From Diacronema lutheri (lineage: Eukaryota > Haptophyta > Pavlovophyceae > Pavlovales > Pavlovaceae): DNA of 64,000 nt. Under the pieces are notes generated by a model that saw nothing but the letters and a program-made list of their open reading frames with translations, was not told the DNA's origin and searched no databases. The position numbers were made by a program, and so were the translations under genes. This document shows, piece by piece, positions 13,820 to 62,750 of the stretch (position 1 is its first letter; each line of letters starts with the position of its first letter). The DNA lies in NCBI GenBank assembly GCA_019448385.1, contig JAGTXO010000007.1, positions 620,001 through 684,000 on the forward strand, written 5' to 3'.

Positions 13820-16212
13820 ACGCCAACGCCCCCGCCACCACTGCGCTGCGCGCGCGCGCCGAGCGCGCCGCGCGCCGCGCGCGCGTACGTTGCGTCTCCG
13901 ACGGCCACATGCACGTCCGGATCAAAGCCCGCGCCCGGACCGTGCGCGCTAGCGCCAAGGTGGCCGCCCGTGCCGACCACAGTGCCCGCGCCACCACCCA
14001 CATCGCCCAACACAAACGCGCCGAGTGCGTCGAGTGCACCGAGGACGTCGTCCAGCATGGCGTCGCTCAGCGGCGCGCCGGAGCGTGCGCCGCATGCCTC
14101 GCTCTCAACGAGCGCCACGTCGCGCGCGCCCGCGCGCGCGCGGGCACTGGCCTCGGAGAACATCTCGTCGCCGACCGCTTCAGCACCACCCGTCGAGCGA
14201 ACAGCAGCGTCGCGCCGCGCCCGCCCGCTGCGTACACTGGACGGTCCCCTGCCGATCGCGTCGGCGCGCCCACCCGCAGCCGCGCGCGCACCGCTTGCCC
14301 CCGCCGCGCGCGCCGCGCCATCCGGCGCGCCGCCCTCGGCGCGCGCTACGCCGTCCGCGCGGCTGTCGGCCGGCGGCGCACGCAGCGCGCCGGCGGCGAG
14401 CGGGCCGCTGACGAGCCCCTCGAGCCTTCTGCGCAGCTCGAGCACGCGCAGCGCCATCGCGCGCGCACCGTGCGGCGCGGGGATCAGCTCGAAGGCATCC
14501 TCCTCCTCGCGCTCAGCGCTGCTGCAGAGCCGCAGCACGTGCGCCACGCCTTGCGCGGACAGCGCCGCAGCCGCGAGGCCGCCGCCGCCCGCAGGCGCTG
14601 CGCTCGCCGCCGTCGCCGCCGCCGCCGCCGCGGCCATCGCGTCGGCCGCATCGTCGGCCGCGTCGGCCTGGGCGAGCGCGCTGTGGGAGCTTGGCGCGCT
14701 CGACCCAGCGCGCAGAGCGTGGGCGTTCGCCTCGACACGAGCCATGTCCACGTGCAGCCAGCGCGGCGCATACGCGTCCGCGCTCGCGAGCGCGGCGCAC
14801 GCCCGAACGGGCACCGTCTCCGACGCTTGCGACGACACTTGCTCGAGCACGAAGAGCGTGCCGAGCGCGTCGGCTGCGTCCGGTTCGTCGCGCCACGGCG
14901 CGGCGCCAGCGCGTGGCGCCTTTCGCGCGTCGTCCGCGCGCGCCGTCGGCCCGTCGTCGGGCGCGTCGGCGTCGCCCGTCAGCCGCGCGCAGTCGAGCGC
15001 CGATCGTCCGCCGACCACGCTGCTCGCGGGCAGCCTTGCGAGGGCAACGCGCGCCACGGCCCCGCGCGCGCTCGCGTGGCTGCTGATGCCCTCCGCGCCG
15101 CCTTCGCGCGCGCCGTCACGGGCCGGCAGCGTGCCCGGCGGCGCTGGCTGGTGCGGCCGTTGCGGCTGCCGCTGCTGCGGCGGCTGCTGCTGTGGCGGCA
15201 ACTGCAGCTGCGGCGGCGGCGGGAGCGCGAGGTATGCGCCCGTGAGCAGGTGGCGAAAGCGAACCCGCGTCGAGTGCCACAGGACTGCGCCCCCGTCCGT
15301 TGCACCTGCGAGCTCGACCTCCCAAAGCGCCTTCCACGACGGCTTGGTCTTGGGCGCCTTGGCGGAGGAGCGCAACATTACGCTGTTTTCGCCGAACAAC
15401 GCCTGACCCTCGCCGCCCTCGCGACGCCCGCCCGCGTCCTCGTGTGCGCGCGCGCCACGCGCCGCGGCCTCGGCGCCGACCGCACGCACGTCGCTCGTCG
15501 CCTTCACTCGCACAAAGCCTTCGGCTTGCCGATGGTAGAGCATGACGACGTCGCCGGCGCGCACGCCGGCAAGGGCGGCGGGCAGCTGTGCGGCGAAGCG
15601 CAGCACCCGCCAGCCGGTCGTGCGGAGCGAAAAGTTCGCCTCGCGCGCGCCGGCCGCGGGCGGTGGCGGCGACGACAACGCGGCGGCGGCCGCCGGCTCG
15701 GCGACGGATGCGTGCAGGTGCTGCAGCGATTGCACGCTGGTGAGCGTAAGCCGGTCGCTCACGTACACCCTCTCGCCCTCGGCGCGCACGCGGTACTGCG
15801 CGCTCAGCCGGAAGAGGAGGTGCGACGGCAGGTCACGCCGCGGGCCGGCGCCGAGCGTCGCCGCCGTCGTCCCTAGCTCGCGCGAGCGCGCGCCGCGCGC
15901 GGAGAATGCGGAGATGTAGAGGCCGGTCGAGACGGAGCGCAGGCTGACGACAGAGCCGTATGTGATCGGCGCGCCGCGCTCAGCCGACGGCAAGAGCACC
16001 TGGAAGCAGCAGCGATCAAAGAAGCCGCCGACGGAGTCGAGCGCCGCCTGCTCGGCGCTGAGCACGCAGAGCGTCAGCTCGTGCGCGGGCTCGGCGAAGG
16101 CGCGCAGCGCAAGGATCTCGCCGCCCGACGCGCCGCCCGACGCGTCCAGGTAGACTACGTCCCCCGACTGGAGCGTCGGAAGCTCGTGCTCAAATTGTGC
16201 GCCAACCGCCAT
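4857..16212 (-). CDS. IP3-receptor-type intracellular calcium-release channel
   Basis: Three exons, 16212..10303, 10203..5786 and 5679..4857, keep frame and give about 3,716 aa, against about 2,700 for animal IP3R and 5,000 for RyR. In order: an N-terminal beta-trefoil/MIR region (GDVVMLYH, KALWEVEL, RFRHLLTGAYLAL), RIH-type helical domains, an RIH-associated segment (LLCEGVNLPVQRYLQDQ), membrane helices near residues 3320-3460, and a pore module ending TCFVCGLDRD...EEHNMWHY, the IP3R/RyR zinc-finger signature. Long Ala/Gly/Pro insertions account for the extra length. The filter reads IWVFGD where animal channels have GGGVGD, and the IP3-contact motifs look altered. The start at 16212 is chosen because the beta-trefoil begins there and the frame upstream overlaps the divergent transporter gene. 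It should release Ca2+ from an internal store. The introns are 99 and 106 bp with GTGCG donors. Confidence 0.93.
8400..8490 (-). repeat. 15-bp tandem repeat coding APTAA units in the channel
   Basis: A short coding minisatellite encodes repeated APTAA units and is followed in the protein by a poly-Gly run. It sits in a loop between RIH-type regions, where length change is probably tolerated. Confidence 0.75.
9475..9656 (-). repeat. About 30-bp coding minisatellite (AGLAESGGAA / AGLAEAVAE units)
   Basis: About seven units of two related types lie in frame in the channel's central region and encode AGLAESGGAA-like and AGLAEAVAE-like decapeptides. The units are nearly identical, which implies recent expansion. 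It would be a good length-polymorphism marker between strains. Confidence 0.85.
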
Positions 16213-16224
16213 AGCACGCACGCC
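16213..16224. promoter_or_regulatory. 12-bp gap between two divergent start codons
   Basis: The channel start (16212, minus) and the first in-frame ATG of the metal transporter (16225, plus) are separated by 12 bp, or 48 bp if the transporter starts at 16261. Each 5' leader and promoter must therefore overlap the other gene's coding sequence. Confidence 0.6.
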
Positions 16225-18025
16225 ATGGAACGTCCGAAAAAAGGTTTGCCGCGGCGGGCCATGGCGGCGGCGCGCATCTCGCGGCTGGGCGGCCGACGAG
16301 CATTCTGCGCGCAAGCGGCGGGGTGGCGCCCGCCGGCGCGCGTGCTCGACGCGCTGCGCTGGAGCAATACGCTCGGCACCATCGACCAGCGGCTCGCCAG
16401 CGAGAGCGAGACTGTCGCCTTCTGGCGCGACGCGCAGACGGTCACGCAGCACGAGGCGCGAACGCTCTACCTGCTGCGCACGGTCGACCTGGCACCGCTG
16501 CCGTTCCTGCTCAAGGTGGGCGCGCATTCGCACACGGTCGATCCGACCGAGGCGCACATGATCCCGCTCTACTTCCGCCTTGACGTGCTGCGCGTCGCGG
16601 CCGCGCGCTGGGGCTCGATGGAGACGATCGCGAAAAAGGTGCAGCACCGCGAGATCGTGCGCACGCGGCGGCTCGCGCGGCGGCAGCAGCTCTTCATCGG
16701 CACTCGGCTCAAGCGCGACAACAGCCAGTCGCGCAGCGCCGCCGCCTCTTCCGCGCCCGTCGGGCAGCAGGCCGTCTACGCGGCGCTCGTCGTGAACGCG
16801 CTCATCGCCGCCGGCAAGGCAGCCGCGTATTACTACACGGGCTCGGGCGCCATGTTCGCTGAGACGGTGCACTCGTGCGCCGATTTCTTCAACCAGGTGT
16901 GCGCGCGTACCGCGCCGCGCGCCGCGCGCACCCGTGGCGTGCCCACGCGCGCGCGCGGCGCGCCCGCACACCGGCGCGCCGTGCCGCGCGCCGCGCGCCG
17001 CGCGCTTCGCAGGCCCTGCTCGCGATCGGCCTGAGCCGCTCGCTGCAAAAGGCGGACCAGAAGCATCCGTACGGCTACGCAAATGAGCAGTACGTCTGGT
17101 CGATGATCTCGGGCGTCGGCGTCTTCTTCCTCGGCTGCGGCATGACGACATATCACGCGTGCCATGCACTCATCTCGCCCGAGCCGCTCGCAAACGTCGG
17201 GCTCGGGATGGGCACGCTCGCGATCGCCGGGCTGCTCGAGGGGTACTCGATGCTCGTCGCGCTGCACGAGATCCGGCGCGAGGCCGCAAAGTCCGGCGTC
17301 AAGACGCTCGACTACATCCGCGACTCGGCCGATCCGCTCAACGTCGGCGTCTTTCTCGAGGACGCGGCCGCCGTCGTCGGCGTCGGCGTCGCGATGACGG
17401 CGCTCGGGCTCTCGCACGTGACGGGCAACCCGGCATGGGACGCGGCCGGCTCGCTCCTCATCGGCGGCATGCTCGGCGGTGTCGCAGCGATGATCGTCTC
17501 GAAGAACCGAGAGATCTTGCTCGGCCAGTCGCTCGCCCCCGCGCGCACGCATCTCGTCCTTGATGTGCTGCGCGCTGACTCGGCGGTGCTCTCGCTGCAC
17601 GACGTGAAGAGCGTGATGGTCTCGCCCGGCGTCGCGCGCTTCAAGGCCGAGGTCCACTTCAACTCCGTCGCCATCGCGGACCGCTACCTTGGTCCGCGCG
17701 CCGCCGGCCGCCGCCACGCCATGCGGCCGATGTCAGGCTGCGCGCCGATTACCGCCTCGCGGCGCGGCGCGCATGCCCGCGCCCTCACGTCCCCGCGCGC
17801 GCGCCGGTCCACACCGCGCGCCGGTTGCCTACAGATATGCACGACAACGCCTCCGCGCTGCGCGAGAGCATACGCGCCGCCGAGTCGGACGCGGACGCGC
17901 GCCGCATCGCGCGCAGGCTGTCGCAACACCTCTACCTCATGCTGGGGCTAGAAGTGGACCGGCTCGAGGCCGTCATACGCAGCAAATGTCCCGAGTTCAA
18001 ATACATCGACCTCGAGCCCTTGTAG
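16225..18025 (+). CDS. SLC30A9: SLC30A9 (ZnT9)-type cation efflux transporter
   Basis: Three exons (16225..16896, 17013..17691, 17835..18025) join in frame and give about 513 aa. The Arg/Ala-rich start (MERPKKGLPRRAMAAARISR) looks like a mitochondrial targeting sequence, and a second ATG lies at 16261. The membrane part has AETVHSCADFFNQ with the metal-binding HxxxD, then SLQKADQKHPYGYANEQYVW, typical of the ZnT9 subgroup, and a later EDAAAVVG segment. Human SLC30A9 is a mitochondrial zinc exporter; the same role is inferred here. Introns are 116 bp (GTGTGCG donor) and 143 bp (GTCCGCG donor). The stop is followed within 70 bp by LINE-derived repeat. Confidence 0.92.
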
Positions 18026-18093
18026 CATGGCTGAGTCAGCGTCGTTCGTCATGACGCGCAGCTGGTGCAGGGTCGTGACGAACGAAAGCGCAG
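18026..18093 (+). repeat. Imperfect hairpin between transporter stop and LINE tail
   Basis: CGTTCGTCATGAC (about 18044-18056) pairs with GTCGTGACGAACG (about 18072-18084) with one mismatch, close after the transporter stop. It may shape the 3' end or be part of the mobile repeat. Confidence 0.45.
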
Positions 18094-18742
18094 TCGACTG
18101 CGCCGGCACCGCGAACAACGTACTTTTCGCCCCGGTCGGTGGGTTTGGAGGTGGCGGGGCGCGCGCGCACGGCCGCACGAGCGACGGCGGCGTGGCCTTC
18201 TCTACGACGAAATCTTCGCTTGCGACGGCTGCGCCCTCGCGCTCTGCTGGCCGCGCTCCGCGCGCCCCGCCGCCCCTGCCCATCGACTGCGCCGGCACCG
18301 CGAACAACGTACTTTTCGCCCCGGTCGGTGGGTTTGGGGGTGGCGGGGCGCGCGTGCGCGGCCACGCGGCCAGCATCGCGGCGCTTGCCACGCTGGCGGC
18401 GGGTGGCGGTGCGCTTCGCGGCGGCGGCAGGGGGCTGCGACGCGGCGGGGAGGGCGGCGGCTCGCTGGCGGCGGGCGTCGCGCTCTGCAGCGGCGGCGGG
18501 CGGCTTGGCGACGTGGCAGGCGGCGGCTCGGGGGTGGCGGTCGTCGCCGACGATCTTCGGGCCTCGGCGTGCGCGTGCGCGTCGGCCGGTGGTGTGATTG
18601 ACGGCGGCCACCGGTGCGGCGGCGCGCGGGCGGCGGCGCGCGGTGGCTAGGCGCGTGTGGGCCTTTGGGCCTGCTCCGCCTGGCGCCTCGCTGCGCACTT
18701 CCTGACCCCATCTGTTGACCCGTCGGAAAGCGTCGTTAGTAT
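18094..18742 (+). mobile_element. LINE 3' fragment (copy A)
   Basis: The segment from 18283 to 18742 is about 98% identical by eye to the reverse complement of 31777-32248. It ends in the shared tail GACCCGTCGGAAAGCGTCGT, then TAGTATA. An ORF tail precedes GGCTAGGCG, as in the larger LINE copy at 39.6-41.4 kb. The first about 60 bp of the unit is present twice (from 18094 and from 18283), so this copy is a compound or internally rearranged insertion. No target duplication could be found. It lies between the transporter and the next gene's start. Confidence 0.75.
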
Positions 18743-21737: not shown

Positions 21738-21761
21738 CGCTCTTTCAAGGCGTGCGTGGCG

Positions 21762-23350: not shown

Positions 23351-23364
23351 CGGAAATATTTTGC

Positions 23365-24384: not shown

Positions 24385-24404
24385 GCAGACCACGAGCAGC
24401 GCAC

Positions 24405-24423
24405 AGCCTCCCCAAGGGAGGCT
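24405..24423. repeat. Perfect 8-bp hairpin (AGCCTCCC / GGGAGGCT, 3-nt loop)
   Basis: This lies in the divergent promoter between the 204-aa gene and Rpn13, 20 bp before the TATA-like box. It could be a protein-binding palindrome or chance. Confidence 0.45.
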
Positions 24424-24443
24424 TGGCCCTACCCGACCTTTAA

Positions 24444-24451
24444 TATAAAAG
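24444..24451 (+). promoter_or_regulatory. TATA box (TATAAAAG) upstream of Rpn13
   Basis: TATAAAAG starts 72 bp before the Rpn13 ATG (24516) in an A/T-rich island of an otherwise very GC-rich region. Spacing would place transcription start near 24475. It is the only clear TATA box found among the divergent promoters. Confidence 0.6.
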
Positions 24452-24515
24452 AGAACGACGCTTCCACTTTTATCGCCCTTGTAGGCTCACCCACGCGACC
24501 TTTTCGGCGGCCGCC

Positions 24516-28830: not shown

Positions 28831-28871
28831 CTGGAGGACGGCCTGTTACGTACCGTCACAGCTGTGGTCAC
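28831..28871. promoter_or_regulatory. 41-bp divergent promoter (lipase / membrane hydrolase)
   Basis: Only 41 bp separate the two ATGs. The gap contains TTACGTAC and CAGCTGTGG. If 28926 is used as the start of the plus gene the gap widens to 95 bp. Confidence 0.5.
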
Positions 28872-30735
28872 ATGTTGCAAGCCCGGCCGGCGGCGGCGTC
28901 CTTGACCTCCTTTGGTGGATCGGCGATGCGGGCCTTTTCAATCGTCGGGATGCTACTGGGCGGCGTCGGGCTGCTCGTGCACGGCGCGATGGCGACGGTG
29001 CGCATGCCCATCCTCCTCAACCATTTTAGCGCCCTCTGGCTCTGCGCCAGCCTCGTCGTTGCGAGCGCCGAGCTCTGGCTGACGGTGCGTGCGTTCGCGT
29101 CCGGCGCGCTGTCGAGCGTCCGTCGGATGCTCGCGACGCTCTACTTTTTGCTCGTCGCGGCGCTCTCGGCGGTGGCCGCCCTCGCGTACGCGGTCGATGG
29201 GCGCTTCGACCTGTTTTGCGAGGGTCTCGTGCAGGCCCTCGTCGGGCTCGTCGGGCTGTACGCGATGCTGTGCAGCAATCGCGACCGCTACCTCGCGTAC
29301 GGGCACGAGCAGTCGGCGGCCGAGCCGCAGCTGCAGCGGCGCGGCGACGCGGAGGCGGGCGTGACGCAGCAGCTATCTCCGGCGCCGCACCCGCCGCACC
29401 GCCACCGCGCGCCCAAGCCGCCGCCGCCTCCGCCCAAGCCGCTGCCCGAGTCAAAGCGGATCGGGCCCTGCGCTCACGCTTTCGTCCTCTTCGCGCATCT
29501 CCTCCTCCTCGCCTTCGTCGCGGCGGGCGCGGTGGTCGCGGCGTACGCGGCGCGCGGGTTCACGCCGACCGGCAAGCTCTACGCTTTCGTCGCCGACAAC
29601 CGCAATCTCGCCGTCAACGTGAGGTGCGTCGAGCCGGCCGCCGGCGCGCCCACGCCTCCGGGCAGGCAGCCCGCGCCGCGCCTCTGGGTGTCGCCGCCCG
29701 ACGGACGCGGCGTGCTCGACGTGTGGGGCTTGCAGCACCACCTCGCGCAGCGCGGCTGGCGATCATGCTCCTTCGACCCCGTCGGCCATGGCGCCTCCTC
29801 GCGCCAGCGCATGCGCATGGGCGGAAAAGGAATGTACCTTCCGCAGCTGATCGACGCAGTCGAGACAGACGACGATGCAGACGTGGCGATCGTCGCGTGG
29901 GGCGAGGGCGGTTCGGCGGCGCTGTCGGTGGCGGCGGGCGGCGTCGACGGCAACGCCGGACGCTCGCGCTTCACGCTCCGCGCCATCGCCCTCGTCGAGG
30001 TCTTCCCGCCAGGCGTCGAGTGCGTGCGCCCCGCCGGCCCCCCCCCCCCGCGCGCAAGTGGGGGGGGGGGGGGGGGGGGGGGGGGGAAGGAAGGGGGGGG
30101 GGGGGGGGGGGGGGGAACGGGGTCGCTGTGCTCACGCGCGGCGCGCGCGCGGCGCGCGCAGGTGGGACGAGCTCGCGCACGCCAACGCGTGGGACGCGGA
30201 GGAGCGGGGCGAGGCGCGGCAGCGCGGCCTAATGAAACGGCTGCGGTACACTCAATTTGTGCTCGCCATCGCCGCGCCGTGGGGGCTGCTGCCCGTCGTC
30301 ATGCCGGCGGGCGAGGCGCCGGCGCACTTCCACCCGGCGGAGCGCTGGGCTGAGCTGCGCGCCGCCGCGTGGCGGCCCAAGCACTGGGTGAGTGAGTACT
30401 GGGCGGCGCGCAGGGCGCTCGTCACGCCGGACGACGACGACCCGCTCGTCCGGCTCGCGCCGTTGGCCGTCCCGATTGGCGCAGTGGTGTGCGAGCTGCG
30501 GGGTGATGCGGCGTGCGTGCTGCCCAGTGGCGACGTGCTCGGCGAGAGCGCGTGCGCCGAGGCCAAGGCGAGCAGCGAGTATCGGCGCGCGGCGCAGCGC
30601 TCGCTCAACGCGCTGCTCGGCGTCAGCGCGACGAGCGTTGACGCAAACGAGCGATGCGGCGCTCTACCCATAAATTTTCCCGAGCGCGCGGCCGCGCGCG
30701 TGCACGCGGTGCTCGCCGACCTGCTGCGCGGCTAA
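28872..30735 (+). CDS. Multi-pass membrane protein with alpha/beta-hydrolase-like domain
   Basis: Two exons (28872..30019, 30162..30735) join in phase 2 and give about 573 aa. Four hydrophobic helices lie in the first 150 residues, and another near residue 205 (FVLFAHLLLLAFVAAGAVVA) follows a His/Pro linker. The soluble part has hydrolase-like features: LQHHLAQRGWRSCSFDPVGHG, the turn VAIVAWGEGGSAALSVA (a GxGxG-like nucleophile elbow without the usual Ser), and the C-terminal LLGVSATSVDANERCGALPI. The serine is not at the expected place, so catalysis is doubtful. The intron is 142 bp and almost entirely G-runs, with a GTGCGTG donor. ATG 28926 is an alternative start. Confidence 0.75.
30036..30116 (+). 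repeat. Intronic C8 then long interrupted G tract
   Basis: About 50 G in two blocks inside the intron of the membrane hydrolase gene. Potential G-quadruplex, and prone to sequencing length errors. Confidence 0.85.
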
Positions 30736-32248: not shown

Positions 32249-32265
32249 CTTACGCTGTAAAAATA

Positions 32266-34500: not shown

Positions 34501-34509
34501 GCCACCGCC

Positions 34510-39562: not shown

Positions 39563-39576
39563 CCATATGTGAACGT

Positions 39577-41430
39577 ACCTGTCGGACTCCCTGCCGGCCG
39601 CGGCTGCCTTCGACGCCATTGTCGCCCGGCAGGCTACCGTCGCTCTCGGCGTCTCCCTCTCGACGGATGCCGTCGCGAGCCGCCGGCTGCCGCTCCCGAT
39701 TGCGATGCATGGCACCGGCCTGCGCAAGCAGGTCGACCTCGCTCCCGCCCTGATCTGGAGCGCCGCCAGCCTCGCCCTGCCGCACCTGCTCGACACGCGC
39801 GCCGCGGACGGCTCCGTCCTGGAGGCGGGCGTCCTCGACCGGCCTGCCATCGCGGCGCGCGTCGGGCGCGGCGCCTTCGCCGACATGGGCGCGCACGGGT
39901 GGCGCTCGTTCCTCGCCTCGGGCTCGCGCCTGGGGCGCGAGCTCGCCTCCGCCTGGCACGCCATGCAGGCCGAGCTCGGCGGCGGGCCGGGCGACACGGA
40001 GGTGCGCGTCCTCCGCCTGTCGCCGGGCTCCGTCGCGCCCGCCGCTCCCGCCGCCGGCCGCCGGCCCAGCCTCTTGGCCGACATCACTGGCGACCGCGAG
40101 CGCTGCCGCTTCGACGTGCCCAACGCTGAGCACGCCGCCATGCCGCCGGGCTCGCGCCCACGCGGCCTCTGGTTTGGTCTCGGCAAAGAGAGCGGCCTCT
40201 TCCTCGAGGCCCTGCCGCGAGCCTATGCCGCTTTCTCGCCGGCGGAGTGGGCCGAGGCGGTTGCGCGCTACTTGGGTCTGCCGAGCCCCGTGTGCGCGCA
40301 GCTCGCGGCGGCGGGCGCGCGCCTCGCGCGCAGCGGCAGCCAGCGCCCGATCCCGGTCGATGCGTTCGGCGACGCGCTCGCGGCGGCACCGGGCGTCGCG
40401 CACGACCACGTCGCGAAGCTTCGCCACGACCCCGCTCTCAACCTGCTTGCCTCGCTGGCTCGCGGATACGCCGGGACCTACGCGCGGCGCGAGGACGCGG
40501 ACATCTTTGGCTCCGTGCTCGCCGGCGTGCCGCCGGCCGGGCGCGCGGCCCTGCGGCATCGGCGCGTGCCCACCGTCGATCTCGTCGTCGTGCTCAACGG
40601 TGCGGGTTCGGCCCCTCAGCTCGTGCAGACACTGTGCGAGCTCAAGTCGATCTCGTACTGCCCCACGCGCTACGGCCAGTCGGACACGCGCCGCTGCCAG
40701 GCCGCTGAGCGGCGGGCGGCGGCCGTCGGCGGCGAACGGCGGCGTGCGTGCGCTCAACTCGACGAGGAGCTCTTCGGCATGCAGCCGGGCCAGGTGGGCC
40801 CGATGCAGGCGCGCCTCAACTCGTTCCCGCCCATCCGCGCGCTGGTCATCGGCTCGTTCGGCGAGTGGTCGGCCGGCCTCGCCGACCTGCTCGCCACCTT
40901 CTCGCACATGGGCGCGGACGCGTGGATGGCGCGCATGGGCGACCCTCGCGCCATCGCCCATGTCGCGCGAGGGCGCGTGGATGGGCGACCTTCACGAGGG
41001 CGCGCCCTCGCGCGACGTCGCCCGCGCGGCCCTCGAGCGGCACATGCGCCTCCAGCTCGCCGCGTGCGTCGAGCGTGGGCACGCGCAGCTCCTGCTCGCG
41101 CGCGCGCAGATGGCGAGCGGGCAGGCGCCGCCACACCGCCACGCGGCTCACGGCGTCCAGGCGGATGTGGACGCCTGCGGCGGTGTGGACGGCCTCTGCT
41201 TCCGGCGCAGCGACGGCGGCGGCGGCCGGCGGGGGCCGGCGAGGGGTGGCTAGGCGTGTGTGGGCGTTATGCCGCGTCCTTGCCGTCCCGGCCGTTCCCG
41301 CTGCCGGCGTGCACAGGGTCGACGCTCTGATTTCGGCCTGATGTTGCGTGCGCCCTTTCGCTCGCTCCGCTTGTCCAGCCTCGGCCCCGTGCACGCCCCC
41401 CCCTGCTGACCCGCCTGTAAGCGTCGTTAG
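39577..41430 (+). mobile_element. 5'-truncated LINE (copy C) with RT-downstream and nuclease-like regions
   Basis: The plus strand encodes the part that follows the reverse transcriptase core in LINEs (RLPLPIAMHGTGLRKQVDLA, then PALIWSAASLALPHLLD). Further on, VPTVDLVVVLNGAG ... CELKSISYCPTRYG looks like a PD-(D/E)xK restriction-like endonuclease core. A frameshift near 40970 moves the terminal part (ERHMRLQLAACVERGHAQLL) to another frame, and the frame ends GPARGG-stop just before GGCTAGGCGTG, as in copies A and B. The 3' tail ends GCGTCGTTAG. TATGTGAACGT (39566-39576) and TATGTAAATGT (41431-41441) are likely the decayed target duplication. The RT catalytic domain is absent. Confidence 0.8.
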
Positions 41431-42561: not shown

Positions 42562-42727
42562 TTTTTTAAATTCATCGGTGTCGCAAGGGTGGCCGCAAGG
42601 TTCCTGCCGTCCGTCCGGGCGCCTTGGCGCACGGCGCTGCGCGTGAGCCCGACGCTCTCGAGCCTTCGCTGTGAAAGACCGAGCGCACAGTGGCCGCTGC
42701 AACGCGCAGAGCAAGGCTGCGAGCCAG
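42562..42727. promoter_or_regulatory. 166-bp divergent promoter (CDF / cytochrome b561)
   Basis: Shared upstream region of a metal transporter and a heme redox protein, with a T7AAA tract next to the CDF start. The pairing of metal transport with a putative ferric/ascorbate reductase suggests co-regulation. Confidence 0.5.
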
Positions 42728-45382: not shown

Positions 45383-45458
<76 letters not shown>

Positions 45459-47017
45459 CGCCTCCTCCGCGTCGTTCTCGTCGTCCAGCCCACCGTACGC
45501 CGCGCCGAGCGCGGCGCCATGCTCGTCGAGCCTCGCGCGCTTGGCCGTGTCGCGCCTGCGCGCGTGCGTGCCCGAGCGGCCGCTCGGCCCGGACCGGCCT
45601 CTCGGCCCGGACTGGCCGAAGCGCCCGGGGCGCGAGCGCTGCTTGGCGCCGACGCCGCTGCTCGGCGAGCTCTTGCCGCCATGCCTGCCGTCGGGCGCGA
45701 GCACGATCTGCGGCTGCTCGGCCGCGCCGAGGCCAAGGGCGCGCGCGCCGGCGGGCGAAGCGGCGACGGGCGTGAATGCTGTTGGCGACAGGGCCTTGCG
45801 CTTGCCAGAGCGCGACTTGGCGCCGCGTTTCAAAGAGGATGGCGGCGTCGGCGCGCGCGCGCCACCGCTTGCGCCGCCCGCGCCGCCGTGCGCGCGCGCC
45901 GCCGGCACGGGCGGCGAGCGCGGGCGCGGCCGCTTGCCGCCGCCGCGCCCCGCGTCCGCCGCGCCGCCGGCCGCCGGGCCCGCGTTGCCCGCCGCTGCAA
46001 GCGCGCCAACTGGGCCGGCTTTTGCACGCGCGCGTGCGCCCGCCGAGCCCGTCAGATCGAAGCCGAGGAAGAAACGACTGCCGACTTTGCCAATCTGCAC
46101 TGCTGCGCCCACCTGCCACGCCACAGGGCGGGGTTGGGGGGGGGGGGGGGGGCATGCGCGCGCGTGCGCGCAGGTGCGCACGCGGCGCAGCGGCGAGGAT
46201 GGGCGATGGCGTGAGTTGGCGCGGAGTCACGGCAAAGCGTGCACGGGAGTGGCTGCTCGCGTGGAGGGCGCGCCGGGACGCCCACGCGCCGCCGAGCGGG
46301 GCGGGGGCCACGTACGTGGCTGCTCGCGCGAGCGCCACCCGCGCATGCGCGCGCGTACGCGCGGCCTCCACGCGGGCGGGTGCACGGGGCGGCGCTCGCG
46401 CTCACGTCGGCGTTCGCGGCACGCATAAAGTCGGTCATGCCCGAGAGGATGTACATCCGGCTCGTCCGGTTCTGCCAAAACCGGAAGCGCAGAGGCCAGA
46501 CGCCGCCGCACAGGTCGTGCCCATCAAAGTCGAACGCCTTGTCGCCGAAGAAGGCGGTGATGGCCTGCGGGTCGGGCAAGGTGACGCGATTGAGCTGGAT
46601 GTCCGTGTTCGTCAGCTTTTTCGACAGCGCCACGTGCGCTGCCGCCAGGCAGTACGGGTTGCTCGGGTCGCCGCAGCCGGCCGGCGCCGAGGGCAGCGGC
46701 GAGCCCTTTTTGGCACGGGCGCGCACGTCGGCTTGGCTGTCCGCGTCGGGCGCGCTGGCGCCGGGCTTGACGGCAATGCGAGGTCCCTTGGCGGCGACCT
46801 TGGTCGCGCGCGTGTCCGGCGTCGGCGCCGCCGCCTCGTCTTCGCCCATGCGCGCGGCGGGCGCGCGCGTGCTCGCCTGGCGAACGCGCGCGCCCGCGCG
46901 ATGCTGCTGCTGGGCGCGATCGGGCGCGCCGGACGCGCCGGCGCGCGCATCGCCATGCAGCGCCACGCGCGCCGCCTTGTCGCCCTCGCCAGCAGGCCCG
47001 TCGGCGACCGACAGCAT
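43602..47017 (-). CDS. B3-like DNA-binding domain plus Tudor-like domain protein
   Basis: Exons 47017..46406 and 46112..43602 join in phase 0 across a 293-bp intron (GTGAGCG donor), giving about 1,040 aa; ATG 46849 is an alternative start. Across the splice the protein reads KKLTNTDIQLNRVTLPDPQA, LRFRFWQNRTSRMYILSGMTDF, then VQIGKVGSRFFLGFDL, the order and spacing of a plant B3 DNA-binding domain (LNRxxIP, FRFxYW, YxLxxGW, FxL). A long basic/disordered region follows with an Asp run of about 20 (GAC/TCG repeat, 45399-45461). Near residue 720 is a Tudor-like segment (RVRVWWALEGRWYDGVV, then LVEYDNGQS). A nuclear chromatin or transcription role is inferred. Acidic residues end the protein. Confidence 0.72.
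45399..45461 (-). repeat. Trinucleotide repeat coding poly-Asp
   Basis: About 21 GAC (GTC on plus) units in frame in the B3-Tudor gene, followed by a Gly run. Nearly pure repeat, expected to vary in length. Confidence 0.9.
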
Positions 47018-47119
47018 GACCACGCCCTGCTCCCGGCGCCTCCCTCGGGTTCGGCCTCACGCCCAAAAGGCTTCTCCAGCTCAGACTTCTCCCGCCCCCG
47101 GGCGTTTTGGCGCGCAGCG
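47018..47119. promoter_or_regulatory. 102-bp divergent promoter (B3-Tudor / EEP)
   Basis: Gap between ATG 47017 (minus) and ATG 47120 (plus). It widens to 270 bp if the minus gene starts at 46849. No TATA box seen. Confidence 0.45.
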
Positions 47120-51125: not shown

Positions 51126-51348
51126 GGCAACCCTCGATTGCCGGGTCGGGGAGGGACGCTTGTCCCAAAATGAGACGCAAGACTGTCTTGATCCGCGCAT
51201 CGCGGAAAATTCCGCGCCATGAACGACGATTCGGGCAAGTTCAGGGGGGCAGACCAGGCCACCAGGGGCAGACGGCCCCCGGGCAACGAACGTAGCGAGC
51301 AAAAGAAGGGCAAAAGCGCGGCAGCAGGAGTCCCACACAGCCTGCACG

Positions 51349-52332: not shown

Positions 52333-52377
52333 TGCTCTTCGCTGACGCGAGGCCACGTCCACCGCGCTTTCTCGACG
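52333..52377. promoter_or_regulatory. 45-bp divergent promoter (DUF1244-MogA / PPR)
   Basis: Only 45 bp separate the start codons; no box motif was recognised. Confidence 0.45.
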
Positions 52378-55337: not shown

Positions 55338-56342
55338 CTAGGCGGGATGTAAGGGGGAGGGGGGTGTGGGAGGGGCTTCGGCGGCCGGCCCGCCGGCCGG
55401 CGGCGCGCGCTTGCCGACCGTCCGGAGCGGCACGCCCGCAAACTCGACGTCGGCGTCGAGAAAGTCGGCGCCCGAGCCGACCTTGCACGCGCCCGTACGC
55501 AGCGCTGAAAGGTCAAGCGGCTCGCGCGCGCGCACGAGCGCCGGCGAGCCGAGCGCCTTGAGCGTGTGCGTGTCGGCGACGAGCACCGAGCAGCGCTGTG
55601 CGGCAAGCACGCGCAGCGTCACGGCCGCACGCTCCTCCGGCACGCCACAGCCGCGGATGCCGCCGACTGCGGGCAGGACGATCGCCGCGCCGCTCAGCAT
55701 CGCGCCCGTGCACGCGCTCGCGATGCCAAACGCGTGGCACAGCGTGACGGCGACGCAGACGCGGTCGTCAGGCCGGAGCGCGAGGCCGGCCGCGAACGCC
55801 GAGCCCTGAGCGAGCGCGTCGGCCTGGGTGAGCGGCGTGAGCGCGGCCCAGTACGCGAGCGCCACGTCGGCGCGCGCGTCCGCGGGCGCGCTCGGCTCCG
55901 CCGCCTCGCCGTCCGGCTGGCCGCGTATGAGCTCGTCGAGCGCGCGGCCTGCGGTGACGCTGCCGAGCGGGAGCGCCGCGCCCGCGCCGGCGAGGAAGGA
56001 ATCGGGCGTCGCGGCGATCGTCGCGCTGAGGCGGCCGCCCGTTGCCGCGACGGACGAGGCCAGCTTGGAAAGCTCTTCCGGCCCTTTGACCGTCGCGACG
56101 GCCGCGCCCACGCGCGAGGCTGCGAGCTGCAGGAGGAGGCATTCGCTCGTGTTTGGCAGGTCGACAGCGACGACATCGGCGGGCCGCACGCCCCATGCGC
56201 GCAGGCCGAGCGCAAAGGCGCGCGTGGCGCGGCTCAGCTCGCCGTATGTGAGCGCGACGCCCTGCTCGGGCACAAGCAGCGCGGGCGCGCGCGGCGCGCG
56301 CTGCGCGGCCCTGTCCAGGGCGCAGGCGATGGTGCGTAGCAT
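55338..56342 (-). CDS. AMP-forming ligase-like protein without P-loop or C-terminal domain
   Basis: 334 aa from ATG 56342. The first two thirds follow the acyl-CoA synthetase/4CL N-terminal subdomains: ALTYGELSRATRAFALGLRA, VVAVDLPNTSECLLLQLAAS, then LCHAFGIASACTGAMLSGAA, like the LPLFHIYG segment. Where the ATP-binding P-loop (SSGTTGxPK) should be, the sequence reads ALAYWAALTPLTQADAL. The end stops at GKRAPPAGGP, before the adenylate-binding A5 motif and the entire C-terminal lid. So it should not make acyl-adenylates; a binding or regulatory role, or a decaying gene, is more likely. The frame is nevertheless fully open. Confidence 0.8.
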   Translation of the reverse strand: MLRTIACALDRAAQRAPRAPALLVPEQGVALTYGELSRATRAFALGLRAWGVRPADVVAVDLPNTSECLLLQLAASRVGAAVATVKGPEELSKLASSVAATGGRLSATIAATPDSFLAGAGAALPLGSVTAGRALDELIRGQPDGEAAEPSAPADARADVALAYWAALTPLTQADALAQGSAFAAGLALRPDDRVCVAVTLCHAFGIASACTGAMLSGAAIVLPAVGGIRGCGVPEERAAVTLRVLAAQRCSVLVADTHTLKALGSPALVRAREPLDLSALRTGACKVGSGADFLDADVEFAGVPLRTVGKRAPPAGGPAAEAPPTPPSPLHPA

Positions 56343-56354
56343 CGTCGACGGCGA
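56343..56354. promoter_or_regulatory. 12-bp gap between divergent starts (AMP-ligase-like / TBC)
   Basis: ATG 56342 (minus) and ATG 56355 (plus) lie 12 bp apart, the same spacing as the channel/transporter pair at 16.2 kb. Each transcript must start inside the other gene or use internal starts. Confidence 0.55.
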
Positions 56355-58208
56355 ATGGCCGAAGATGGGGCACTCGAATGGACGGAACCTGAGCGCGAGT
56401 GGGATGCGTGGGGCTTCGCCGTCGCCGCGCCAGCGCCGGCGCGGCGTGCGGAGGACGACGGCGTGGGTACGCCGCCGGCCTCGCCGACGCACGGCGGCGC
56501 GCGCGTGCCATGGCGGATCACGCGGCCGGTGTCGTTGGGCGTCGACGCGACGCGCGAGCTCGCGCGCGCGTCGCGCCGTGCGCTCGCGCGCTCGGCGGGC
56601 TCAGTGGCGAGCCTCGACGCGCGGCGCGAGCGCGCGCGCGTTGCGCACGAGCTCCGCTGGCACGCCTACTGGCGCCGGCTGCACGCGCGCGCGCGTGGTT
56701 CGCCAATCCGCTTGCACGCTGACGACGACGAGCTGCGCGCGCTCGTCCGAGGCGGCGTCTCGGTCGCGATGCGCGGCAGCGTGTGGCCCGCGCTGTGCGG
56801 GCTGCCAGGTCGACTCGCGCACGTGGCCGAGCTCTACCACCACCTCGCCGCCGACCACGGCGCCGACGACCTCCGCTCCGCCGAGGCGATCGAGGCGATC
56901 GACAAGGACATCGAGCGCACGTGGCCACGCCACGCACGGATGGACGCGCGCGCGCGCGGCGCCTTGCGCCGCGTGCTCGTCGCGCTCGCGCGCGCGGAGC
57001 CGGAGATCGGCTACTGCCAGGGCCTCAACGAGGTGGCCGCCGCGCTCCTCCTCTTCGCGCCCGACGAAGCGTGCGCGTTCGGCATGCTGCTGCACATCGT
57101 GCGGACGGCGCTGCCGCCCGACTGGTACGGGCGGACGCTCGCCGGCTCGCTCGCCGAGGCGCGCGTGCTCGGCGAGCTGATCGGGCGGTTCGAGCCGGCG
57201 ATCGGCGCGCGCATGGCGCAGCTCGGCGTCGAGCCCAGCCTCTTCTGCACGCCATGGCTCCTTCGCCTCTTCGTGGACGCTCTGCCGTTTGGGGTGACGC
57301 TGCGCGTGTGGGACTGCGTGCTGCTCGCGAGCGCGGACGGGGCGCGCTCGACGCGGACGGGGCGCGGTGCCGACGTGCTCCTGCGCGTTGCGATCGCGCT
57401 GCTCCGCACGCACCGCCACGCCCTCCTGCGCGCGCCGCACGCCGGCGCCTTTGTGCGCGCGCTCGCCGACAGCGCGCGCGCGACGCGCGAGGCGGACGCG
57501 GACGCCCTGGTCGCCGCCGCCTTCCGCGTTGGTTGGTCGCTGCAGCCGCCGGCGCTGAGCTCGTTCCCACCACAGGCCGAGCTCGACGCGCTGCGCCTCG
57601 CGCACCGCGCCGCCGTCGAAGCGATCGCCGAGCGGCTGCTCCGCGCACGGAGCGCGCGGAGCGACGCTGCGCGCGCGGCCGCCGAGCGCGGCGGCGCGCC
57701 CGCGGGCACGCGCGCGGACGCGCCCGCGCAGCCGGCTGGCCAGGCCGACGCCGCACCGCTGACCGCGCGCGCGCCCGCCGCCGCGGATGCGCGCGTGCGC
57801 GCTGCCACTGCCTCCCCGTACGTCGCCTCTGACGAGCCGCCTCTGCCGGCGGGCGCGCGCGCGGACGGCGGCCCGCCCATTCACCCGCTCGTCGTGAGCG
57901 CGCCCGACGCGCGCGGTCCGCCGCTCGCCGATCCAGCGCCACCACCTGCCGCGGCAGACGTGGCGGACGCGCACGGCGGCGCGAGCGGCGAGCCCGCAGC
58001 CGCGTCGTCGCCAGCCGGCGCACCGCCTCGCGCAGACGCGGCGCAGGCGCGCGCCGCTGGCGCGGCGCCGTCCGCGACGCCCGCGACGCCGCCGCTGAGC
58101 GGCGGCGCCAGCAGCGGCAACGGCGGGCGGCAGGCGCCTCGGACGGCGAGCTGGAGTGGACGGAGGCATTTCCCATTCGTCCGTCTCCCGCGCTTTGACA
58201 TTGTGTGA
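56355..58208 (+). CDS. TBC-domain Rab GTPase-activating protein
   Basis: 617 aa, single exon. The TBC domain spans about residues 130-350: RGSVWPALCGLPGR, AIDKDIERTWP with the catalytic Arg finger, EIGYCQGLNEVAAALLLF with the Gln finger (YCQ), and PSLFCTPWLLRLFVDALPFG with the following RVWDCVLL. Both catalytic fingers are present, so it should accelerate Rab GTP hydrolysis in membrane traffic. The last 220 residues are Ala/Pro/Arg-rich and disordered, ending RLPRFDIV. The start is the only ATG before the WDAWGFAV segment. Confidence 0.92.
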   Translation: MAEDGALEWTEPEREWDAWGFAVAAPAPARRAEDDGVGTPPASPTHGGARVPWRITRPVSLGVDATRELARASRRALARSAGSVASLDARRERARVAHELRWHAYWRRLHARARGSPIRLHADDDELRALVRGGVSVAMRGSVWPALCGLPGRLAHVAELYHHLAADHGADDLRSAEAIEAIDKDIERTWPRHARMDARARGALRRVLVALARAEPEIGYCQGLNEVAAALLLFAPDEACAFGMLLHIVRTALPPDWYGRTLAGSLAEARVLGELIGRFEPAIGARMAQLGVEPSLFCTPWLLRLFVDALPFGVTLRVWDCVLLASADGARSTRTGRGADVLLRVAIALLRTHRHALLRAPHAGAFVRALADSARATREADADALVAAAFRVGWSLQPPALSSFPPQAELDALRLAHRAAVEAIAERLLRARSARSDAARAAAERGGAPAGTRADAPAQPAGQADAAPLTARAPAAADARVRAATASPYVASDEPPLPAGARADGGPPIHPLVVSAPDARGPPLADPAPPPAAADVADAHGGASGEPAAASSPAGAPPRADAAQARAAGAAPSATPATPPLSGGASSGNGGRQAPRTASWSGRRHFPFVRLPRFDIV

Positions 58209-58300: not shown

Positions 58301-60622
58301 TCAGCTCCTCCCGCCGCAACCACACGAGGGCACCAGCGCGCGGCGCGGCGCGGGCTTGGGCCCGTCGCCGCCGCTCGGCCCGCCCGCCGCATCGACGACC
58401 TTGACGTCGGGGATGGGCTCGTGCCCGAGCAGCCGGCGCGGGCGCGCGCGGCGCCAATCGCGCCAGAAGAGCAGCGTGCCATGGTGGTGCCACCGGTGCG
58501 CGACGCACGCGACGACGGCGAGCAAGACGGCGAGCCCGATGCCGAGCCGCATCGGGTAGGCCTCGATCTGCCGGTCGACGGCGGCCTGCTTGAGGAGCGC
58601 CTTGTATCGCTTCGAGTCGGCCGAGTCGGCGGTCATCGCCGCGACCAGCGCGCTCGCGTCGCTCCAGCCGTCCTCCGTCTCGGCGCTCACGCGGAACGAG
58701 AACGTGAGGCCCGCGGGCAGCTCGGTCACAACGAGCGCCGAGTCGGCGCCGCCGACCAGCCCGTCGCTCTCGTTAGTGCTCGAGTTGCGCGCGGCGCCGC
58801 GCCAGCTGAGGCCGCCGTCTTCGCTCATCTCGACGCGGAACGCGCGGACCTGCACCGGCGCGCTCGCGTCGACGGCGCCCGATGCGAGCGTCGCGGCGGG
58901 CATCGTCCACGCGATGCGCAGGCCATCGCGCCCGACCGCGCTCGCCGACGTGATCACCGGCGCGAGCGGCAGCTGCGGCTGCACGTGGATCGTGCCCTTC
59001 TGTCCGCGGTTGGAGAAGTTGTTGTTGCGCGTCGACATGAAGTGGTACGTGCCTTGCTTGAGCCGGAGGAGGCCGAGGTCGACGGTCGGCGCGGCCGCGT
59101 TGAGCTTCTCGCAATTGTTGGCCGCCTGGTCGCTCGGCGCGTCGGCCGACGATGCGCAGCCCGTCTGCCGCACGAGCGCAAACTCCTTGGCGAGCTGGGC
59201 GGCGGTGCGGGCGGGCGCGCCGTCGAGCGTCGTCTCGTCGTGCACGTCAAACATGCTCGTCTGCGAGACGTGCAGCGGGAAGTGGCTGCCGAGGTCGGCG
59301 ATCTGCACGAGGTTGTGCCGGTCGGTGCCGTCGATGCCCTCGCCGTTGTTGCCGCCGTTGTTGTTCGTCTTGTCGTTGCCCGTCCACTGGAAGTGGATCC
59401 ACGCGCCGGGCGACACGGCGAGCACCGACGGCGCAAAGTCGTACTCCACCGACGGGTAGGCCTGCACGATGTTGCCGCGCTTGCCGCGCACGTTGAGGTT
59501 GTACACCTTGGCGGAGGCGCGGACGGCGGCCGGCCGCGCGACGATCTCGAAGCGGAATGTCCGGTCCTGGAAGGTGCGGCCGTGCTGGTCGCTGTTGATC
59601 GCGAGCTCGAGCTGCGAGTCGTCGCCGCCCGTCAGCCCGAAGCCCAGGTCGACGCGCGGGTTGGTCTTGACAGGCGAGTTGCCGTTGTTGTAGCGCGAGT
59701 CGAGCTCCCATGGCACGTCGGCGGTCGAGATGTTATATCGCATGCGGAGCACGCACGCGTTGGACACGTCGTCGGGGATTGTCCAGTTGTACATGGTCGC
59801 GCCGCCTGTCAGCGTGTTGCCCAGGTGGTTGTCGCGCAGGTAGGGCGCGGGGAGGCACTGCGGCGGGTCGACGCCGTGCGATGGCACCTCGACCCACGCC
59901 GAGCCGCCCTGGAAGCACGCGCGCTCGTTGTTGAACTGCGGGTCGTCGCACTCATGCTTGGCGGCGACGTTCTGTGACTCGTTCTTGTAGTACCCGCACA
60001 TGCTCACGTTGGTCGTCAGCACGGCGATGTCCTTCCACACGGTCGGGTGCCAGTACGGGTAGTAGTCGCGCTCCTCGGGGCACTCAAAGCCGTACCGATT
60101 GTTTGGGTTGTTCTCCTGGCGCGTGGCGGTGGCGCGGTTGCGGTTGGCCATGTCTTGGTCTGCCGTCCACAGGCCCATGTTACGCTCGCGCGCCGCGCAC
60201 TTGACGTAGTTTTGGACGGGCTCGTGCAGGCCGCGCGTCTGGTCGGTCGGCGCGGCGAGGTCAATCCTCGCGGGTGTCGTACCGTCGCGCACGTTCATGC
60301 CTTTGGACGGATCGTCATTGCAGTAATACTGGAGGACAAACTGGCAGCGCGCCTTGCCGTGCCCGCACGAGTGCTGCGCCGTCCACTCGATCGAGAGCTC
60401 CGAGCCGACGATGAAGCGGAGCGGAGCAGCCGGCGCCTCCGCGTCGCCACCCATGCCGTACCCGCCGGCGTTGTTGTTTTCCGAGTCGAAGAGTCGATTG
60501 GGATTCTCTGTGTCGCCGTTCCCACGGTCGAGCCGGTTGTTTGAACCGCGCGGGTTGTGCGCATAGATGTCCGCGCCCGCCCGCAGCGCGCCGGCGAGCA
60601 GCGCGACGGCGAGGCGCGTCAT
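58301..60622 (-). CDS. DD3-3-like secreted/membrane protein
   Basis: 773 aa, single exon. A signal peptide (MTRLAVALLAGALRAGADI) precedes ADIYAHNPRGSNNRLDRGNG, the signature opening of DD3-3 proteins first seen in Dictyostelium prestalk cells and widespread in chromist algae. The Asn-rich ectodomain continues with many Cys, Trp and Tyr, several N-glycosylation sequons and a cupredoxin-like part (SPGAWIHFQWTGND ... GTYHFMSTRNNNFSNRG). A fibronectin-III-like domain (PLAPVITSASAVG ... FSFRVSAETEDGW), a membrane helix (LGIGLAVLLAVVACVAHRW) and a short tail (CGCGG) follow. Function is unknown; surface or adhesion role inferred. Confidence 0.88.
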   Translation of the reverse strand: MTRLAVALLAGALRAGADIYAHNPRGSNNRLDRGNGDTENPNRLFDSENNNAGGYGMGGDAEAPAAPLRFIVGSELSIEWTAQHSCGHGKARCQFVLQYYCNDDPSKGMNVRDGTTPARIDLAAPTDQTRGLHEPVQNYVKCAARERNMGLWTADQDMANRNRATATRQENNPNNRYGFECPEERDYYPYWHPTVWKDIAVLTTNVSMCGYYKNESQNVAAKHECDDPQFNNERACFQGGSAWVEVPSHGVDPPQCLPAPYLRDNHLGNTLTGGATMYNWTIPDDVSNACVLRMRYNISTADVPWELDSRYNNGNSPVKTNPRVDLGFGLTGGDDSQLELAINSDQHGRTFQDRTFRFEIVARPAAVRASAKVYNLNVRGKRGNIVQAYPSVEYDFAPSVLAVSPGAWIHFQWTGNDKTNNNGGNNGEGIDGTDRHNLVQIADLGSHFPLHVSQTSMFDVHDETTLDGAPARTAAQLAKEFALVRQTGCASSADAPSDQAANNCEKLNAAAPTVDLGLLRLKQGTYHFMSTRNNNFSNRGQKGTIHVQPQLPLAPVITSASAVGRDGLRIAWTMPAATLASGAVDASAPVQVRAFRVEMSEDGGLSWRGAARNSSTNESDGLVGGADSALVVTELPAGLTFSFRVSAETEDGWSDASALVAAMTADSADSKRYKALLKQAAVDRQIEAYPMRLGIGLAVLLAVVACVAHRWHHHGTLLFWRDWRRARPRRLLGHEPIPDVKVVDAAGGPSGGDGPKPAPRRALVPSCGCGGRS

Positions 60623-60682
60623 GGACGTTTTCCCTGACCGAACGTTCCTCCCCGATCGCGTTTCAAACTCCCCCTTTGAAAG
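60623..60682. promoter_or_regulatory. 60-bp divergent promoter with TTTCAAA-N7-TTTGAAA palindrome
   Basis: The gap between the DD3-3-like and kinase starts holds an inverted repeat, TTTCAAA (60661-60667) and TTTGAAA (60675-60681), ending 1 bp before the kinase ATG. It is A/T-rich and may be a binding site. Confidence 0.5.
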
Positions 60683-62750
60683 ATGGGCGCGCCCCCCCCG
60701 CGTTCAAAACGGGGTTGGGGTTGGTCAGCCATGCGCGGCTCGGGCTCGGGCTGGGCTGAGCCCGTGCCGCTGATCGAGGACGCGGAGGCGTTCGAGGAGA
60801 CCTTCGCGACGCTACGGCACATTGGCGCGGGCGCGTCCGGCCGCGTGCTCCTGGTCGAGCACCGGCGCACGCGCGCGAAGTGCGTCCTCAAAAAGATCCC
60901 GATGATGTCGATGAAGGACGCGGGTGCGGCGCCGCGCGCCGCACCGCGCCGCGCCGCATGGCACGGCGCCGAGCGGCGCGCGCCACGCGCGCGCCGCCCG
61001 CCGCCCGTCCATCCGCCGCGCAGGGCCCGTGATGAAGGAGGTGACTGTGCTCGCGCAGCTCGACCACCCGAACATCACGCGCTACCACGGCAGCTGGCAT
61101 GCCGACGGCTGCCTCAACATCCTGATGGAGTACGCGGACGGCGGCTCGCTCGCCGACGCTCTGCGCGGGCGGGCGGAGGATAAGGCATACCTCGACGAGG
61201 ACGTGATCATGGACTGGTTCGTGCAGGCCGCGCGCGCCGTGCACTACATCCACGAGCGCAAGATTGTACATCGCGACCTCAAGGCGCAAAACGTCCTCCT
61301 CACCAAGCGCGGGCTGATCAAGGTGTGCGACTTTGGGATCTCGAAGGTGCTCGAGGAGACGTCGGGCGGCTCTGCCGGCCTCGCCTCCACCTGCATCGGC
61401 ACGCCCTTCTACCTCTCGCCCGAGATCGTCGAGGCGCAAAAGTACGGCCTGCCCACCGACATCTGGTCGCTCGGCGTGCTGCTCTACGAGATGGCCGCGC
61501 TGCGCAAGCCGTTCGAGGCGGACTCGCTGCCCGCGCTCGCGATGCGCATCACCCGCGCCGTCTACAACGAGCTCCCCGACTGCTTCTCGCCCGAGCTTCG
61601 CGCGCTCGTGCGCCGCCTGCTCCAACGCGACCCGGCCGAGCGGCCGACCGCCGACTCGCTGCTCTGCGACGAGTACGTGCAGGCGAACGAGGATCGGTTC
61701 AACGCGCAGCTTGCCGAGCTCGCGGAGCTTGCGCACGGCCTCGCCTCCGCCCGCGCCTCCTTCGCCTCGCCCCCCGTCCCGCACCACCGGCCGTCCGCGC
61801 TCACGCCGCCCGCGCACCAGCCGGCGGCGGCGGCGGCGGCGGCAGGCGCGGCGGTCGGCGGCGAATCGCCCGCCCCCGGCCCCACCCCCGCGTCCGACGC
61901 GCAAGCGCAGCCAGCGCTCGCGACGATCGGCGACGCGACGCTCGTGCTCGGCGCGCCCGCCGTCAGCGCGCCGCTCGACGCGCCGCCGCCGCCACTCGCG
62001 GCGCGCGTGCTCGCGCAGCCCCCGCGCACGCTCGGCCGTGCGCGGGGGCTCGACATGCTCAGCGAGGCGGGCGAGGCGGCGCAGCTGCCCGCGCGCGGCG
62101 CGTCTCTGCCGAGCGCCACCGCGCCGCTGGCCGCGGAGCGCGAGTCGCTCGCGCCGGGCGCAGGCGCCGGGCGTGCGAGCGTCGGACTGCTGCTGCACGC
62201 CGCGGCGGGCAGCCCGCAGGCCGAGCGCGCGATGGCGTGCGCGCTGCGGCACGAACTCGTGCTTGAAACGAGCGACGCTTGCGCGCTGTCGCCCAGCCGG
62301 CTGCGCGCCTCGCTTGAGGACAACATGCGCTTCTCACTCAACATGCGCGCGCTCGAGACGAACCTCGCGGCCGCGGCCGACGACGACGCGGGCGCGCCCG
62401 ACGCGACGCCGCCGAGCGAGGACAACGCGGCCGGGCGCGCGAGCGACGCGCCGCGCGGTGTGCTCGTGCCCAGCGCCAGCTCGGATGCCGGCGTCTGGGC
62501 TCACGGCGTCGAGCGCGCTTGCGGCGCGTCGGCGTGCGGATCGCGCGAGCACGGGCAACCGGCGGGCGACGCCGAGCACGCGTCGGCGCGATCGCCGCTC
62601 GCCGTCAACAACGCGGGCTTCGTTACGAGGCGCAGGTCGCGCCGCGGCGAGCGGAGCAAGGCGAGGCCCGCAGTCTCGCCCGCGACGTTTGCCGCGCCGC
62701 CGCCTAGCACCGCGCCGCGGGCGGCGGTGGCCGACGCGCCGGCGAGCTGA
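60683..62750 (+). CDS. NEK-like serine/threonine kinase
   Basis: Two exons (60683..60923, 61024..62750) join in phase 1 across a 100-bp intron with GTGCGGC donor, giving 655 aa; ATG 60731 is an alternative start. The kinase domain (residues about 35-320) is complete: HIGAGASGRVLLVEH, CVLKKIPM with the Lys, EVTVLAQLDHPNITRYHGSW, VHRDLKAQNVLLT, VCDFGISKVLEET, CIGTPFYLSPEI and DIWSLGVLLYEMAALRKPFE. The HRDLKxQNVLL and GTPFYLSPE residues suit the NEK family, linked to cilia and the cell cycle. The C-terminal half is Ala/Pro-rich with a basic RRRSRRGERSKARP patch. It should be an active kinase. Confidence 0.92.

Follow-up and report, generated by a model that had tools for sequence, protein, structure and literature searches.

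Where can promoters reside when two neighbouring genes, reading away from each other, have start codons as little as 12 bp apart? This question is raised by a 64-kb stretch of the haptophyte Diacronema lutheri (assembly GCA_019448385.1, contig JAGTXO010000007.1, positions 620,001 to 684,000), hereafter the window, from which alone all our counts are taken. A sequence-only reading of this stretch had listed nine head-to-head gene pairs, and all nine pairs of divergent start codons lie where it had placed them, with gaps of 12, 24, 131, 41, 166, 102, 45, 12 and 60 bp. The gene finder used here adds a tenth pair outside that list, 39619/39705, separated by 85 bp. In each of the ten, adjacent genes occupy opposite strands with their 5' ends facing each other, as in a divergent gene pair; the definition of such pairs also sets an upper bound of 1000 bp on the intergenic region or on the distance between start sites. 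Gaps were measured from ATG to ATG, and hence include both 5' untranslated regions (UTRs); they span 12-166 bp with the starts as first read and 12-270 bp with the refined starts described below. These ultra-compact divergent pairs are real, and they hold 20 of the 29 genes curated by hand, in line with the earlier statement that most genes of the window are arranged in this way. We consider it probable (roughly 60%), judging from the sequence, that transcription of both genes of a pair begins in a single shared initiation zone. The ten gaps and their flanking genes are as follows.

Gap 1, 16213..16260: IP3R/RyR-like channel gene 4857-16212 (-) and ZnT-like cation efflux gene (+), start at 16225 as read, more likely 16261, end at 18026.
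Gap 2, 21738..21761 (24 bp): small open reading frame (ORF) 21306-21737 (-), without family, and RPC5 gene 21762-23350 (+), whose start is fixed by homology.
Gap 3, 24385..24515 (131 bp): multi-exon gene 23411-24384 (-), for which no family reached the cut-off, and Rpn13-like gene 24516-~25865 (+).
Gap 4, 28831..28925: class 3 lipase gene 26272-28830 (-) and a gene without family (+), start at 28872 as read, likely 28926, running to 30735.
Gap 5, 39620..39704 (85 bp): alpha/beta hydrolase gene (PGAP1-like) 38558-39619 (-), start possibly at 39520, and gene 39705-~41330 (+), without family.
Gap 6, 42562..42727 (166 bp): cation efflux gene 41530-42561 (-) and cytochrome b561-like gene 42728-43522 (+).
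Gap 7, 46850..47119: gene 43602-47017 (-), without family, start possibly at 46849, and endonuclease/exonuclease/phosphatase gene 47120-48556 (+).
Gap 8, 52333..52377 (45 bp): DUF1244-MoCF gene 51349-52332 (-), whose start is fixed by homology, and PPR gene 52378-~54530 (+), with an N terminus that looks presequence-like by eye.
Gap 9, 56343..56354 (12 bp): AMP-binding gene 55338-56342 (-) and RabGAP-TBC gene 56355-58208 (+); homology together with ORF limits fixes the start on either side.
Gap 10, 60623..60730: gene 58301-60622 (-), whose only match, to fn3, is weak, and protein kinase gene (+), start at 60683 as read, likely 60731, running to 62750.

The value of these gaps depends on the start codons. 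We considered a start as fixed when homology to a solved or curated family begins ahead of any second in-frame methionine, and five starts are fixed in this way. In the RPC5 gene (21762), query residue 10 aligns to residue 6 of chain 9fso_E; in the Rpn13-like gene (24516), the Pru domain begins at residue 14 and the next methionine is residue 22; in the DUF1244 gene (52332), homology begins at residue 6 and the next methionine is residue 30; in the AMP-binding gene (56342), query residue 3 falls on chain residue 2, the next methionine being residue 215; and in the TBC gene (56355), homology starts at residue 119, ahead of the next methionine at 139, with an in-frame stop 18 bp upstream of the start codon. 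Since both of its starts are fixed, the 12-bp pair 56342/56355 stands on both sides, barring a spliced-on leader exon. The start of the IP3R-like gene (16212) is also well supported, with homology from about residue 70-80 and the next methionine at residue 224.

For the other starts we relied on a gene finder based on codon usage, which works on both strands and allows introns. It was first trained on 11 ORF stretches, most of which began at starts named by the sequence-only reading, and is therefore not fully independent of it. It recovered the divergent boundaries already listed, together with 39619/39705, and the coding score climbs at, or shortly after, most of the 20 starts. Three right-hand starts were shifted to more likely positions slightly downstream (16225 to 16261, 28872 to 28926 and 60683 to 60731). 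The start at 47017 may instead be 46849, giving a gap of 270 bp, because the segment before that next methionine was judged weakly coding; the alternative start 39520 in place of 39619 would give 184 bp and was left out of the counts. When the gene finder was retrained on 17 models deprived of their first 60 codons and run under 12 settings (dropping models shorter than 300 nt, with a tolerance of 200 bp), 8-10 of the ten divergent boundaries came back under each setting. Median gaps across these settings were 95-102 bp for divergent and 109-137.5 bp for convergent pairs, with 0-6 tandem pairs.

Could the gaps nevertheless be an effect of misread starts or genes, with the true ATGs downstream, small partners that are not genes and many distances really above 300 bp? 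We regard this as very improbable: three or four starts do move downstream by 36-168 bp, 39619 could be 39520, and neither the ORF 21306-21737 nor the gene 23411-24384 has a family match above cut-off, but homology fixes five starts, among them the two that flank the 12-bp gap, and all ten gaps are at most 270 bp with the shifts applied.

How do these gaps compare with those that hold no promoter? In compact genomes, gaps that hold promoters are expected to be longer than promoterless ones. In the window, the geometric mean of the divergent gaps is 49 bp as read and 71 bp refined, vs 124 bp for the 11 convergent gaps (two of which, 25865/26272 and 48556/48723, have uncertain ends). The divergent/convergent ratio is thus 0.39 as read (bootstrap 95% interval 0.20-0.73) and 0.57 refined (0.29-1.05). 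The one-sided test for longer divergent gaps gives P = 0.99 as read and 0.90 refined, while divergent gaps fall short of twice the convergent length with P = 0.0002 and 0.001, respectively. The latter result also held when the test was confined to the best-supported rows (refined, P = 0.037, 7 vs 6 rows). This comparison dropped the divergent rows 21737/21762, 24384/24516 and 39619/39705 and the convergent rows 21156/21306, 23350/23411, 25865/26272, 48556/48723 and 62750/62962, and kept the convergent row 38431/38558 although its gene adjoins the dropped 39619 pair. Tandem gaps, with one promoter each, have a median of 639 bp, and several of them span repeats or a low-GC (guanine plus cytosine) island.

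The pairs resemble the divergent pairs of yeasts in that neighbours on opposite strands face away from each other across a short region between coding sequences. In contrast to the gaps described here, with means of 49-71 bp and 0.4-0.6 times the convergent length, the geometric means tabulated for 11 yeasts are 322-853 bp for old divergent and 88-248 bp for convergent gaps, with a 2% limit of 78-255 bp for the divergent ones (PMC3128071, Table 1); from the same table, we computed ratios of 2.4-4.2. A minimal regulatory space of this yeast type, in which old divergent gaps rarely fall below 78-255 bp and are on average at least twice as long as convergent gaps, is therefore not what is found here, since four of the ten gaps (refined) or six (as read) are shorter than 78 bp and the ratio is 0.39-0.57. 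The same counts support the earlier suggestion that the upstream regions are too short for two separate promoters.

Does this arrangement extend to the order of genes along the window? The curated list of 29 genes comprises 24 of tier 1 (supported by Pfam or by a strong coding score), four weaker ones and a doubtful one (48723-51200). Among the tier-1 genes, 1-1722 and those starting at 28926, 39705, 43602 and 58301 have no match or one below cut-off, and the match of 31807-34101 is under the curated cut-off. The 28 adjacencies are 10 divergent, 11 convergent and 7 tandem, where 14 tandem would be expected (P = 0.006, binomial; P = 0.008, permutation), these and the following P values being post hoc as the window was picked out for this very pattern. 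Without the doubtful gene, 6 of 27 adjacencies are tandem (P = 0.003); omitting also the two genes of the lower-GC island leaves 4 of 25 (P = 0.0005-0.0008). With tier-1 genes only, 8 divergent, 8 convergent and 7 tandem adjacencies remain out of 23 (P = 0.047, binomial; 0.027, permutation). Strand alternation beyond chance is therefore suggestive. An artefact of the gene finder was considered as its source and rejected: cheap introns gave 0-3 tandem pairs, partly through fused tandem genes, and dear introns up to 6. As the tandem counts shift with the settings, the orientation test was based on the curated list. In a survey of 64 eukaryotes, co-directional pairs make up about 50% in most of them (PMC2871058). 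Some species are named there in which gene direction seems less random than this share; here, 7 of 28 adjacencies are tandem, in one window.

What mechanism could operate in so little space? Where start codons are 12-45 bp apart, there is no space outside coding sequence for a core promoter plus two leaders, and start sites must lie in or beside the gap, or inside the coding region of the partner. According to the reading that we favour, the shared zone would be the 12-270 bp gap itself, extended into the first codons of both partners where the gap is shortest. RNA polymerase II would initiate both ways, within or beside the gap, and the 5' UTRs would be very short (near-leaderless) or would overlap the 5' coding end of the partner. 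Both partners would be transcribed from chromatin opened in common, with start sites and short leaders at positions that we infer. Promoters inside coding sequence are plausible given the green alga Auxenochlorella, whose genome is streamlined and for which 165 protein-coding genes with internal bidirectional promoters making antisense long non-coding RNAs are described (PMC12636532). One sequence element also favours a shared zone, and agrees with the earlier remark that a single gap shows a TATA box:

24439..24450, in gap 3: TTTAATATAAAA, with a TATAWAW at 24444 that has no second copy in the 64 kb, and with TATA on both strands; between its edges and the start codons at 24384 and 24516 there are 55 and 66 bp, respectively.

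Several results weigh against a shared zone. No 5-8-mer is common to the ten refined gaps above the 95% shuffle level, with or without 15 bp of flanks, and the autocorrelation of CpG loss at the nucleosome scale was not clearly distinguishable from that of block shuffles. The GC content at gap centres is 0.66-0.68 in divergent and 0.65-0.70 in convergent gaps, so that there is no promoter-specific dip. With the starts as read, the divergent gaps are shorter than the convergent gaps at a significant level (two-sided P = 0.026); with refined starts the difference is not significant (P = 0.23), and the safe claim is therefore that they are not longer. Finally, five partners (21306-21737, 23411-24384, 28926-30735, 39705-41330 and 43602-47017) belong to no known family; among partners with a known family, the functions are mixed and unrelated, as had been noted.

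The most serious rival proposes two independent core promoters per pair, each lying largely in the first 50-150 coding bp of the partner gene, which would overlap only through compactness and share no regulation. The missing common element speaks for it, and so do the 12-45 bp gaps, with no space outside coding sequence; moreover, overlapping core promoters within each other's coding sequences would look the same as a shared promoter. The authors of a transcription start site sequencing (TSS-seq) study of Giardia argue that apparent bidirectionality there can result from nearby unidirectional starts (PMC3792122). Conversely, the similar lower size limit of uni- and bidirectional promoter regions in 11 yeasts has been read by the authors of that work as one promoter acting both ways (PMC3128071), and the TATA site of the 24.4-kb gap is single and readable on both strands, although this concerns 1 of 10 gaps. 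Taken together, we consider independent promoters a minority explanation, unlikely though worth keeping in view.

A second rival, clearly less credible, invokes spliced 5' leaders: transcription would really begin far upstream, in the partner gene or past it, the 5' UTRs would contain introns, and the ATG-to-ATG distance would carry no information on promoter spacing. Window genes do contain predicted introns, and an AG directly before the ATG, as an acceptor needs, is present at 2 of 19 refined starts (28830 and 42728) and at 60683, the start as first read. It is absent from the other 17, although a leader exon could end further upstream, and spliced leaders would presumably demand antisense overlap in most of the ten pairs. 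One shared initiation zone per pair is the reading that we favour.

Head-to-head genes with shared promoters are already known, and the window is an extreme member of this class, with an unusual order of gap lengths. Its pairs resemble human bidirectional promoters in their head-to-head orientation and short spacing: the human pairs lie within 1 kb, e.g., HSPD1/HSPE1 at 49 bp, and only 8.5% of those in the list were judged to be functionally related (PMC2871058). Unlike that listing, 20 of the 29 window genes are in such pairs, with spacings that run from start codon to start codon and include both 5' UTRs. A closer precedent for tiny leaders is Giardia lamblia, for which PMC3792122 reports that most 5' UTRs are shorter than 20 nt and that 928 pairs of opposite start regions lie within 5 nt of each other; eukaryotes can thus work with such leaders and such closely opposed starts. 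The window shares with Giardia a compact genome, and similarly tiny leaders would suit its 12-45 bp gaps. In contrast to the AT-rich start-site consensus of Giardia, no AT-rich element is common to the gaps here. In the literature searched, where long result lists were covered in part and mostly through abstracts, we found no account of such an arrangement in haptophytes.

The earlier suggestion of a genome-wide architecture would be an extrapolation from a single 64-kb window. A broader and more doubtful proposal, which we offer tentatively, would hold for the whole lineage. Promoters would not be mainly intergenic; alternation would pair nearly every gene head-to-head; a single bidirectional initiation zone would overlap the first codons of both genes; and the promoter-bearing gaps would be the shortest of the genome, the reverse of yeasts. 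If mapped start sites bear out a shared zone, a eukaryotic RNA polymerase II promoter would need much less room than the limit seen in yeasts or, alternatively, the 5' coding sequence of the adjacent gene would carry promoter information. The 12-270 bp gaps would then be ready-made dual promoters for algal engineering, and editing within them would affect two genes.

Judged from its gene content, the window is GC-rich, densely packed eukaryotic nuclear DNA, and its host genome is probably that of a streamlined alga. GC content is 72.2% (46,220/64,000 bases), the families found in Pfam include RPC5, Rpn13, cation efflux, class 3 lipase, TBC, PPR, protein kinase, DUF1244-MoCF, papain and IP3R/RyR, and 9 of 26 gene-finder models are single-exon. 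A prokaryotic or viral origin is ruled out by the RPC5, Rpn13, RabGAP-TBC, PPR and IP3R/RyR domains. For the whole D. lutheri genome, PMC8379373 gives 73.25% GC, 43.5 Mb and 14,446 genes, 45% of them single-exon; the window is denser (64 kb/29 genes, 2.2 kb per gene) than this genome average (43.5 Mb/14,446, 3.0 kb). Within the 64 kb, ARAGORN found no tRNA and Rfam yielded nothing at gathering scores, and contig scans of virus and prokaryote collections, made with synteny in view, confirmed no relative.

Some of the paired genes have features of their own. The IP3R/RyR-like channel (4857-16212, -), about 3,680 residues long, is encoded by four predicted exons; its Ins145_P3_rec, MIR, RIH, RIH_assoc and Ion_trans domains follow what we take to be the order of the family. 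A giant misjoined minus-strand ORF was ruled out, since the four exons bear the IP3R/RyR domains in this order. In the protein of 51349-52332 (-), a DUF1244 domain at residues 24-91 is joined to a Cnx1/Mog-like molybdopterin-binding domain at residues 156-312. The AMP-binding protein of 55338-56342 (-) has only 334 residues, which match the initial portion of acyl-CoA ligases about 500 residues long, and it may be truncated or split. In the RPC5 gene, the intron at 22570-22720 (+) was placed by the gene finder at 22611-22717; by eye, it may start near 22573, with a candidate GC donor in place of GT.

Outside the pairs, a stretch of lower GC content (64%) is located at 32-38 kb and contains, at 31807-36607 (+), two tandem ORFs similar to polysaccharide pyruvyl transferases (E values of 1.2e-4, under the curated cut-off, and 2.7e-10), possibly acquired horizontally. 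A peptide starting DCAGTANNVLFAPVGGFGGGGAR is encoded at 18080-18650 (+), in two copies, and at 31883-32248 (-). The segment 34495-34692 (-), without a Pfam match, encodes a stretch that we take to resemble Pif1/Helitron helicases, and together these three regions possibly represent a mobile element.

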